A stretch of 32,057 nt of DNA from Gallionella sp. (lineage in GTDB: Bacteria > Pseudomonadota > Gammaproteobacteria > Burkholderiales > Gallionellaceae): the NCBI GenBank assembly GCA_027311105.1, contig DAICZN010000111.1, positions 1 through 32,057 of the forward strand. Reading direction: 5' to 3'. A model generated the notes under the pieces. It did not search any database and had not been told where the DNA came from. It was given only the letters and a program-made list of their open reading frames with translations. Position 1 is the first letter of the stretch. Every line of letters starts with the position of its first letter. The translations under genes and the position numbers were made by a program. This document shows positions 12,864-16,357 of this stretch, one piece after another.

Positions 12864-13442
12864 TCAGCGCAGATCGCCCGCCAGGGAATTGCGCACTTCC
12901 GCCGGCACTTCCACTTCCTTGCGGTAACCGGGGTGGTCTATGCCTGCACGCAGGACTGCTCCACGCCTGATTGCGCCAACCATTTCCGGCGTGAGTTCGA
13001 AGCGCAGGAAATGTACCGCAGAGGTCTTGTCTTCGGTCTCCCTGTCCATGTCCTCGTTGGCGATCGGATAAACCTTGCCGCATCCTTCAGCCTGTATCCA
13101 GATGGCTTTCTCGATGCCGAGCAGACTGGCGAGGGCCACACGGCGCTCTTCCACATCCTCGTACTCAAGCATGAAAGTCGCCTTCCAGTTGCTGCCATCC
13201 GGTATGAGAGAGTTGTAGACATCCAGTTCCTGCTGTATGCCTTCCGCTTCGAAGATGCGCTCCAGACGCAACATTTCCTGCACCTGGTATTGCATCGTGA
13301 GGCTGTCCTCGAAATACAGCGTGGCGTGAGCGCCGATGGCCAGTCTGCGCTTCGCCTTGTGCGCCATGACCTTGGCACGGAATTCGGGCCGGATGCGGGC
13401 GTATTGTTCCAGGCTATACAGTTTTTCGCGGGTTAATTGCAT
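12864..13442 (-). CDS. DUF3501 family protein
   Basis: This 192-aa soluble protein has no signal peptide and no membrane segment. I recognise the DUF3501 family ([23 protein letters not shown] start, then [20 protein letters not shown] and [11 protein letters not shown]), whose biochemical role is unknown. A conserved region with acidic and aromatic residues ([10 protein letters not shown]) is near the C-terminus. The single Cys (EGCGKVYP) does not suggest a cluster by itself. ATG 13442 has an AGGAAG Shine-Dalgarno. It lies 18 nt after the Fe-S oxidoreductase gene, so translation from one mRNA with rubrerythrin is likely. By my recollection, rubrerythrin, this Fe-S protein and DUF3501 recur together in proteobacterial genomes, which argues for a shared oxidative-stress role. 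That function is inference. Confidence 0.8.
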
Positions 13443-13460
13443 GTTCGTAATTCTTCCTGT

Positions 13461-14795
13461 TTAAATATCATATGCCATGCGCAGCAGGGTGATCGGGTGT
13501 TCCGGCGCGCGGCCGTCCTTCAGGCCGTTCTCGATATGGTGGCCGGCCATCGCGCAGTCGCTGCCGTAATGCTTGGCTTCGGCTTTCTTTACGCGTTCCA
13601 CCACCGGCATGACGATTTTCATTGCCGATGCATGGAATTCCTTTTTCACGGCATAAGTGCCGTCGTGGCCGGAACAGCGCTCGATGATTTCCACCAGCGT
13701 GTCGGGTATCAGCGACAGGGCTTCGCGGGTCTTCTGGCCGATGTTCTGCACGCGCTGATGGCAGGCGGCGTGATACGCCACCTTGCCCAAGGGTTGCCTG
13801 AAGTCGGTCTTGAGTTTGCCTTCCCTGTGACGCAGCATCAGGTATTCGAAAGGGTCGAAGAAGGCTTCCTTCACTTTCTGCACCTCGGGATCGCCGGGGA
13901 ACATCAGCGGCAGTTCCTGCTTGAACATCAGCACGCAGGAGGGAACCAGCGCGGTCAGGTCCCAGCCTTCATCGACGAGTTTGGCCAGTACCGGGATGTT
14001 GAATTCCCTGGCTTTAACCACCGCTTCCAGATTGCCCAGCTCCAGTTTGGGCATGCCGCAGCAGCGCTCCTGTTCAGCCAGCGTGACGGGAATGCCGTTG
14101 TGCTCGAACACCGCAACGAAGTCTTCGCCCGGCCCCGGCTCGTTGCGGTTCATGTAGCAGGTGGCGAACAGCGCGACCTTGCCCGTGGTTTTTCCGGCGG
14201 GTTCAGCCTGGGAGGAACTGCGATGTTGAGAAAGACGGCTGCGCAGCGAGTTGCTATGGAATTCCGGCAGCCATGCATCGGCATGTATGCCCGCCACGGC
14301 TTCCAGTCCCTTGCGCGCAACGCCGATCTTGTTGACCGCATTCACCACCTGGGCGACAACCGGGATGCCCGCCAGACTGCCGACGGTGTCGGTGCTGGTC
14401 AGTACCCGGTCGCGCAGTTTCACGTCGCCCTGCCGGTACTTCACGGCCTTGGCCCTGAGCATCAGGTGGGGGAAGTCCACGTTCCATTCGTGCGGAGGCA
14501 CATAAGGACACTTGGTCATGTAGCACAGATCGCACAGGTAACAATGGTCCACGACCTTGACATAATCGGCCTTGGCGATCCCATCCACTTCCATGGTCGG
14601 GGATTCGTCCACCAGGTCGAACAGCGTCGGAAACGACTGGCACAGACTGACGCAACGGCGGCAACCGTGGCAAATGTCGAAGACCCGTTCCAGTTCCTTG
14701 TGCAACGATTCCTCGTCGTAAAAATCCGGATTATTCCAGTCCAGCGGGTGACGGGTGGGGGCTTCAAGATTGCCTTCACGGGTAGTGTTAGCCAT
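13461..14795 (-). CDS. Two-cluster Fe-S oxidoreductase of the HdrD/GlpC type
   Basis: This 444-aa soluble protein resembles heterodisulfide-reductase D-like and GlpC-like subunits, which pass electrons through two [4Fe-4S] clusters to a Cys-rich CCG domain. The clusters are visible as C42-x2-C45-x2-C48-x3-C52 and C85-x2-C88-x2-C91-x3-C96-P. The first CCG block is intact (ERCCGMPKLELG). The second reads ERCSGHDGTYAVKKEF, with Ser in place of the second Cys, so only one full CCG site is expected. The ORF track begins at TTG 14819, but ATG 14795 (MANTTREG) has an AGGA Shine-Dalgarno 8 nt upstream and is preferred. It follows rubrerythrin and precedes DUF3501 by 18 nt. Because the rubrerythrin lacks a rubredoxin domain, this protein is a good candidate for its electron donor. 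That is inference, and the true partner and donor are unknown. Confidence 0.82.
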   Translation of the reverse strand: MANTTREGNLEAPTRHPLDWNNPDFYDEESLHKELERVFDICHGCRRCVSLCQSFPTLFDLVDESPTMEVDGIAKADYVKVVDHCYLCDLCYMTKCPYVPPHEWNVDFPHLMLRAKAVKYRQGDVKLRDRVLTSTDTVGSLAGIPVVAQVVNAVNKIGVARKGLEAVAGIHADAWLPEFHSNSLRSRLSQHRSSSQAEPAGKTTGKVALFATCYMNRNEPGPGEDFVAVFEHNGIPVTLAEQERCCGMPKLELGNLEAVVKAREFNIPVLAKLVDEGWDLTALVPSCVLMFKQELPLMFPGDPEVQKVKEAFFDPFEYLMLRHREGKLKTDFRQPLGKVAYHAACHQRVQNIGQKTREALSLIPDTLVEIIERCSGHDGTYAVKKEFHASAMKIVMPVVERVKKAEAKHYGSDCAMAGHHIENGLKDGRAPEHPITLLRMAYDI

Positions 14796-14830
14796 GGCAT
14801 CGTCCTGTGCGTATTTCAAATCGGGGAAAG

Positions 14831-14855
14831 TCCGGCCGCGGAGGGCACGGCCGGA
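14831..14855 (-). other. Intercistronic hairpin between rubrerythrin and the Fe-S protein
   Basis: An 8-bp GC-rich perfect stem (TCCGGCCG / CGGCCGGA) with a 9-nt loop sits 20 nt past the rubrerythrin stop. On the minus strand it is followed by CTTTCCCC, not a true T-tract. It could partly terminate or protect the rubrerythrin message, so that rubrerythrin is made in excess over the downstream genes. Confidence 0.45.
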
Positions 14856-14875
14856 ACAGAGTTACGAATCAGGGC

Positions 14876-15295
14876 TTATGCCTTGAACTCGGTGAGAGCT
14901 TTCTGGTAACGGTTGGCGTGGGAACGCTCCGCCTTGGCCAAGGTTTCGAACCAGTCGGCGACTTCAGTGAAGCCTTCCGCACGGGCAGTCTTGGCCATTC
15001 CGGGGTACATGTCGGTGTACTCGTGGGTCTCGCCCGCTACGGCGCTTTTCAGGTTGTCTTCGGTGCCGCCGAATGGCAGGCCGGTGGCGGGATCGCCGCA
15101 TTGCTCCAGATATTCCAGGTGTCCGTGCGCATGACCGGTTTCCCCTTCAGCGGTGGAGCGGAACAGCGCGGATACATCGTTGTAGCCCTCGACATCGGCC
15201 TTGGCTGCGAAATACAGATAGCGGCGGTTGGCCATGGATTCCCCGGCGAAAGCGTCTTTCAGGGATTGCTCGGTTTTGCTTCCTTTCAGTTTCAT
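14876..15295 (-). CDS. Rubrerythrin-type di-iron protein without a rubredoxin domain
   Basis: Rubrerythrins reduce hydrogen peroxide to water at a di-iron site in a four-helix bundle. All expected ligands are present in 139 residues: E19 ([11 protein letters not shown]), E52 and H55 (AEGETGHAH), E89 and E92 (AGETHEYTD), and E123 and H126 ([11 protein letters not shown]). Classic rubrerythrin is about 190 aa with a C-terminal rubredoxin [Fe(Cys)4] domain. Here the chain ends after the bundle, with a single Cys (C66), as in sulerythrin-like forms. It therefore needs an outside electron donor, plausibly the adjacent Fe-S protein. ATG 15295 has a GAGG Shine-Dalgarno about 8 nt upstream. It lies 150 nt downstream of oxyR on the same strand, with an OxyR-like site between them. 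Confidence 0.92.
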
Positions 15296-15401
15296 GTTAG
15301 TTACCTCACTCTGGTTGAAAAAATTGACTGTCGATCAAGTTACCCTATGTCACCGGGGCAGCTTACTACTTTGCTGACAGGGCAAGAAGTAAATTGTTTC
15401 G

Positions 15402-15416
15402 ATAGTTGCAATCGAT
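15402..15416. promoter_or_regulatory. Candidate OxyR binding half-site upstream of rubrerythrin
   Basis: ATAGTTGCAATCGAT matches the OxyR unit ATAGnTnnnAnCTAT at all but one defined position. It also forms a TCGAT-N7-ATCGA inverted repeat with the T-N11-A layout of LysR-type operators. A second unit at the usual 7-bp spacing is not convincing. Location between oxyR and rubrerythrin fits peroxide control of the operon. The promoter hexamers are not resolved. Confidence 0.45.
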
Positions 15417-15445
15417 AAAATAGATTGAGCCGAAAATATCGTTTG

Positions 15446-16357
15446 TCATTCCACAGCCAGGGTTCCCGGAGGCAATAATTCTTTGAGAAGCTTCGCCAGA
15501 CCTTCCATCGTGGGCGCCAGCGGAGAGCGCCGTCGCCAGGCCAGGCCGATGGTGCGCGATGCGCCTGGAGCGACCAGCGGACGCAGTGCGACACGGGTAC
15601 CGATGTCATGAGATTGCATACCGGCCAGTGCCGGGATCAGCGTGACTCCGAGCCCCATGCCGACCATCTGGCGTAGTGTCTCCAGGCTGGTCGCGCGTAT
15701 CTCCTCATTGTCCAGTCCTTCCAGGCGGCAAGCCTCCAGAGCCTGGTTGCGCAGGCAGTGCCCTTCTTCCAGCAGCAGCAGGCCGGCACGGACCAGCTCA
15801 TCGATATGCACCTCTTTTGCGGCGGCCAGAGCATGGCCGGCAGGTACAGCGGCGAAAAACGGTTCGCAGAATAACGGTGCGATTTCCATCGCGGGGTCGT
15901 CGAAAGGCAGGGGTAGCGCAAGCAGGCCGGCATCCAGCTTGCCCCCGGTCAAGTGGGCAAGCACATGCGGTGTCATCTCCTCGCGAAGGAACAGCCGCAG
16001 TTTCGGAAAATGTTCATGAAGCGGCGGGAGGACATGGGGCAGGTAATACGGCCCCAGTGTCGGGATGACCCCGAGGTGAACGGAACGCGCCATGGGATCC
16101 TTGATCTGCTGCGAGAGCTCATGGATGCGGTTGGTTTCCTCGATGATACGCCGGGCAGAATCGACAATTTCACGTCCTGCCGGGGTGAGCGTCGCGTTTT
16201 TCAGGCTGCGGTCGAAAAGCGCGAGCCCGAGATAATCCTCCAGTTTCCTGATCTGGGTCGACAGCGTGGATTGGCTTACGAAGCAGGCCTCCGCCGCGCG
16301 GCCGAAGTGACCGGTATCCGCCAGTGCAACCACATAGCGCAGTTCCTGCAGCGTCAT
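15446..16357 (-). CDS. oxyR: Hydrogen-peroxide-sensing LysR-type regulator OxyR
   Basis: OxyR activates peroxide-defence genes after forming an intramolecular disulfide. The 303-aa protein from ATG 16357 (MTLQELRYVVALADTGHF) has the LysR winged helix-turn-helix (FGRAAEACFVSQSTLSTQIRKLE, shortened: VSQSTLSTQIRKLE) at about 17-40 and a substrate-binding-like C-terminal domain. The redox pair is C201 and C210 in EGHCLRNQALEAC, equivalent to C199/C208 of E. coli, which makes this OxyR rather than another LysR protein. The ORF track starts 12 codons earlier at 16393, but ATG 16357 has an AAGG Shine-Dalgarno 7 nt upstream and gives the normal OxyR N-terminus. It is followed by rubrerythrin on the same strand and preceded by dinG with a 72-nt gap. 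Confidence 0.93.
   Translation of the reverse strand: MTLQELRYVVALADTGHFGRAAEACFVSQSTLSTQIRKLEDYLGLALFDRSLKNATLTPAGREIVDSARRIIEETNRIHELSQQIKDPMARSVHLGVIPTLGPYYLPHVLPPLHEHFPKLRLFLREEMTPHVLAHLTGGKLDAGLLALPLPFDDPAMEIAPLFCEPFFAAVPAGHALAAAKEVHIDELVRAGLLLLEEGHCLRNQALEACRLEGLDNEEIRATSLETLRQMVGMGLGVTLIPALAGMQSHDIGTRVALRPLVAPGASRTIGLAWRRRSPLAPTMEGLAKLLKELLPPGTLAVE

Follow-up and report, generated by a model that had tools for sequence, protein, structure and literature searches.

The window, a 32,057-nt stretch of DNA from the iron-oxidising bacterium Gallionella sp., carries four genes that all lie on the minus strand and are transcribed in the order oxyR, RBR, RFO and DUF3501. The oxyR gene (15,446–16,357) specifies a 303-aa LysR-family peroxide sensor whose best NCBIfam model is OxyR (PRK11151; 1.4e-79), and is separated by a 150-nt intergenic region (15,296–15,445, minus strand), the presumed promoter, from the gene for a 139-aa aerobic-type rubrerythrin (RBR; 14,876–15,295). 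The RFO gene (13,461–14,795), encoding a 444-aa CCG-type Fe-S oxidoreductase, begins 80 nt downstream of the RBR gene, and the DUF3501 gene (12,864–13,442; 192 aa; PF12007, 245 bits, 5.3e-73) follows 18 nt downstream of RFO. Open reading frames and profile matches bore out the gene positions and identities proposed in an earlier note on this DNA, which had listed OxyR, a rubrerythrin, an Fe-S protein and, 18 nt on, DUF3501. The source genome is 1.75 Mb in size and 65.5% complete, and its nearest named relative is Candidatus Gallionella acididurans, whose DUF3501 is 97% identical. Scans for promoters and terminators returned chance-level matches only. After DUF3501 lies a TatA-like gene (PF02416; 12,601–12,820, minus strand), with a TATAAT-like sequence in between; since this gene adjoins the trio only in two Gallionella relatives (L002 and L022) among the loci examined, it probably does not belong to the module.

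Judged by their sequences, RBR, RFO and DUF3501 of the window are the aerobic-type RBR-RFO-DUF3501 system already described by Cardenas et al. in 2016, who delineated this RBR lineage, named RFO, reported co-occurrence of all three genes in 185 genomes and hypothesized that RFO makes up for the loss of the rubredoxin domain (PMC5114695). The window agrees with this system in the three protein families, in their linkage and co-occurrence, in the lack of a rubredoxin domain and in the role proposed for RFO, and shows no essential difference; its adjacent OxyR is paralleled in Sideroxydans lithotrophicus, where OxyR also adjoins the trio (PMC7852563). The trio has further been described in Acidihalobacter (PMC7760498) and traced to protist mitochondria, some of which inherited this peroxide-defence system of aerobes as well (PMC7050145). 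The earlier note's statement that the trio lacked a functional description thus needs narrowing: we found no biochemistry of the trio in the literature, but its naming, its survey and the very same donor hypothesis date from 2016.

RBR consists of a ferritin-like/rubrerythrin domain alone (PF02915), and neither Pfam nor NCBIfam profiles revealed a C-terminal rubredoxin domain within its 139 aa. Correspondingly, the NCBIfam rubrerythrin model aligned only over positions 3–144 of 194, scoring 130 bits versus the 200 required. Seven residues that we take to be the di-iron ligands from knowledge of rubrerythrin structures (E19, E52, H55, E89, E92, E123 and H126) proved invariant in 69 sequences, in agreement with the claim that this rubrerythrin keeps all of its di-iron ligands without a rubredoxin domain. 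Its nearest PDB relatives are the B. pseudomallei-type Rbr (4di0, 8fuh and 9onm) and sulerythrin (1j30), and by sequence RBR belongs to the sulerythrin/ferriperoxin group devoid of a rubredoxin domain. Ferriperoxin of Hydrogenobacter thermophilus, a rubredoxin-less RBR of the same lineage as is sulerythrin, is an NADPH-FNR-dependent peroxidase that is essential for aerobic growth (PMC3317640). It differs from the window system in that it was assayed with NADPH-FNR, while the RFO gene is unlinked to it (PMC5114695).

RFO was identified by the PF02754 and GlpC models, by invariant motifs and by its AlphaFold model. The protein has two intact N-terminal four-cysteine motifs (C42/45/48/52 and C85/88/91/96), followed by two CCG-type sites of which Pfam calls only the first (PF02754). 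Site 1 (C213...C245C246...C287-V-L-M290) comprises four cysteines and a methionine, and site 2 (C345H346...C374SGH377DG...C414) comprises three cysteines. The RFO-specific substitutions, namely C-x-L-M at site 1 and C-S-G-H-x-G at site 2, remained unchanged in 28/28 sequences with identities down to ~40%. GlpC emerged as the best NCBIfam family, with a score (219.1 bits) under the equivalog cut-off of 278 and with RBR and DUF3501 as neighbours of RFO instead of the glpAB genes by which GlpC is recognized. E. coli GlpC is 29% identical to RFO and has both N-terminal [4Fe-4S] motifs as well as C213, C245, C246 and C287 in common with it, whereas RFO stands apart in its C-x-L-M at site 1, its longer N-terminus and its second site. 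Because GlpC reads C...CCG...CETC at site 2, where RFO reads C-H...C-S-G-H-x-G...C-A-M-A, two lost cysteines and the gained H377 mark the RFO group.

While a PDB sequence search with RFO gave no match, its AlphaFold model (pLDDT 85.7) matched the folds of LutA and HdrB, and RFO therefore has the CCG double-domain fold in common with LutA and HdrB/HdrD. In contrast to these proteins, RFO is without complete five-cysteine sites, the sites that hold the non-cubane clusters of HdrB, and dehydrogenase or Hdr subunits are absent from its vicinity. A true HdrD was rejected as an identity for RFO, as the C-x(n)-CCG-x(n)-CxxC signature is incomplete at both sites (C-V-L-M at site 1; C-S-G-H and C-A-M-A at site 2) and invariably so in relatives. 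What the earlier note had called an HdrD-like protein with one full CCG site is hence CCG-type with two [4Fe-4S] motifs, as proposed, but closest to GlpC and with neither site bearing five cysteines. The fold of the model, together with kinship to GlpC, which hands electrons to the quinone pool, might indicate that RFO is itself a catalytic partner, i.e. a modified CCG enzyme that acts on a thiol, disulfide or quinone and couples that pool to peroxide reduction; a link to a thiol or quinone pool had also been raised in the earlier note. The invariant incompleteness of both five-cysteine sites argues against such a role, as does the finding that no conserved membrane or flavin partner was found beside the trio, and we regard it as distinctly improbable.

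The AlphaFold model of DUF3501 (pLDDT 90.4) superposed with a TM-score of 0.90 on 3fjv, the crystal structure of a B. pseudomallei member of this family that was made public in 2009 under the description 'novel protein of unknown function'. Beyond 3fjv, a Foldseek search against the PDB yielded only matches with a TM-score of at most 0.37, which were dismissed, and thus no other credible fold. An alignment of relatives revealed no invariant cysteine, making it unlikely that DUF3501 is a redox carrier, and a function as electron carrier was rejected for this reason. Residues 131, 134 and 139 are invariant, although they map to, or next to, the part of the model with the lowest confidence. The conserved loop 127–142 (window positions 13,017–13,064) includes this least confident part, and we infer from the model that it may constitute a partner-binding segment. 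Together with the invariant RFO-specific motifs, this flexible, conserved loop provides concrete residues for testing.

Linkage of the three genes was scored in 399 evenly drawn Pseudomonadota genomes, with RFO called present at E ≤ 1e-60 and a close RBR defined by at least 77% identity to the query. DUF3501 was present in 25 of these genomes, and the identical 25 genomes held RFO and a close RBR, with the next-best RBR being just 54% identical and stemming from genomes without RFO and DUF3501. Comparison of coordinates revealed that the trio genes adjoin one another in all 25 carriers; an arrangement in which DUF3501 and the Fe-S protein mostly occur apart from rubrerythrin, against which the earlier note had asked its proposal to be checked, was not seen. 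The carriers span many families, and the occurrence of both carriers and non-carriers within the same family (f2) implies joint gain or loss of the trio genes. RFO was present in all 65 loci that extended far enough upstream, and 63 of these showed the RBR-RFO-DUF3501 order on a single strand. The two exceptions, from Imhoffiella (L045) and Thiocapsa (L079), carry RFO and DUF3501 with no close rubrerythrin on the locus. A fusion of RFO to DUF3501 was not encountered among the loci examined, though a natural one has been reported for Nitrosomonas.

The OxyR of the window carries the redox pair C201-x8-C210, the counterpart of the peroxidatic and resolving cysteines C199 and C208 of E. coli, and the same C-x8-C pair is present in the OxyRs beside the trio in relatives. 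In 20 of the 65 loci, the gene immediately preceding RBR, in the same orientation, encodes an OxyR with this pair (a count that excludes the partial match in L028 and the distant one in L078), and these regulators fall into two lineages with about 70–97% or about 37–41% identity to the window OxyR. The OxyR box in the 150-nt region of the window is weak (best match at 13/20 consensus positions; p ~0.06 versus shuffles), and several relatives, e.g. L053 and L067, have clearer boxes at the equivalent place. In B. pseudomallei, the homologous genes bpss1837–1839 (a hypothetical protein, a 'ferredoxin' and a rubrerythrin) were jointly upregulated after H2O2 exposure (log2 3.3–3.4), with bpss1837 by gene order presumably corresponding to DUF3501. 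This response depended on sigma-E (PMC4175613), showing that OxyR control is not universal. In this Gallionella, the trio is probably controlled by the adjacent OxyR. The perfect co-occurrence and adjacency (25/25), the recurrent OxyR linkage and the published Burkholderia H2O2 co-induction make the proposal that rubrerythrin, Fe-S protein and DUF3501 form a peroxide-reductase module under OxyR a well-supported one.

As to how this module would work, the reading that we hold to be reasonably probable is that of an OxyR-linked RBR peroxidase with RFO as its donor and DUF3501 as a non-redox partner. Upon H2O2 exposure, OxyR would raise transcription of the operon, and RBR would use its di-iron site to turn H2O2 or organic hydroperoxides into water or alcohol. 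RFO would serve as a GlpC-like Fe-S relay that replaces the lost rubredoxin domain, drawing on the quinol pool, a ferredoxin or a flavoprotein reductase as candidate electron sources. We infer that electrons would then flow via the two [4Fe-4S] clusters and the modified CCG sites to RBR, with DUF3501 docking or assembling RBR, perhaps through loop 127–142. Trio and OxyR linkage, H2O2 co-induction, the peroxidase activity of ferriperoxin, the invariant RFO motifs and the HdrB/LutA fold speak for this reading, while the weak OxyR box of the window and the sigma-E dependence in B. pseudomallei speak against it. So do two further observations, namely that ferriperoxin turns over in vitro with NADPH-FNR alone and without RFO (PMC3317640), and that in Thermoproteales RBR and DUF3501 occur in the absence of RFO (PMC5114695). 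These might in turn indicate that RBR is fed by a general-purpose donor (ferredoxin-NADP reductase, ferredoxin or thioredoxin reductase), with RFO and DUF3501 acting at a different step, e.g. the maturation or repair of the di-iron site or the reduction of iron destined for it; indeed, the B. pseudomallei Rbr binds metal promiscuously and only partially (PMC12585693), suggesting that its loading may need help. As RFO is never absent from RBR-DUF3501 carriers in the Pseudomonadota sample, and is built as an electron relay, we deem such an arrangement rather unlikely.

Some related operons carry an additional gene. A ferritin of the EncFtn-like type (short s-FLP class; 95 aa; closest PDB entry 3k6c) is encoded within the operon or just behind it in 20 of 80 DUF3501 loci (including L005, L008, L013, L016, L017, L020, L070, L074 and L076), either between RFO and DUF3501 or directly after DUF3501, whereas none was found in the window, in its own incomplete genome or in that of the Gallionella relative L002. 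The ferroxidase activity of RBRs in some organisms and the presence of this neighbour could be read as signs that the module chiefly handles iron, by ferroxidation or storage, and not peroxide clearance. Such a purpose is very unlikely in view of the OxyR linkage, the induction by H2O2 and the peroxidase activity and phenotype of ferriperoxin. Returning to RFO as the donor of a peroxidase, we can tentatively extend this reading, as a possibility that we would not call probable: RFO might derive from GlpC, with CCG sites that have been reshaped into an unusual Fe-S or mixed-ligand centre dedicated to reducing the di-iron peroxidase, with DUF3501, whose fold no other solved protein shows, as obligate docking or assembly partner and with some lineages adding a shell-free EncFtn-like ferritin for iron uptake.

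Whether s-FLPs are encapsulated was considered unclear in a 2024 review (PMC11202242). Of 10 s-FLP operon genomes tested, including some that are incompletely assembled, nine showed no encapsulin shell gene. A second, separate set comprised 16 genomes of at least 93% completeness that contain strong EncFtn-like genes; here, shell genes were likewise absent from all 14 genomes with the short form, and occurred solely in the two genomes whose EncFtn ends in a GSLK/GSLR-type targeting peptide. This distribution leads us to favour a probably shell-less function of the s-FLP.
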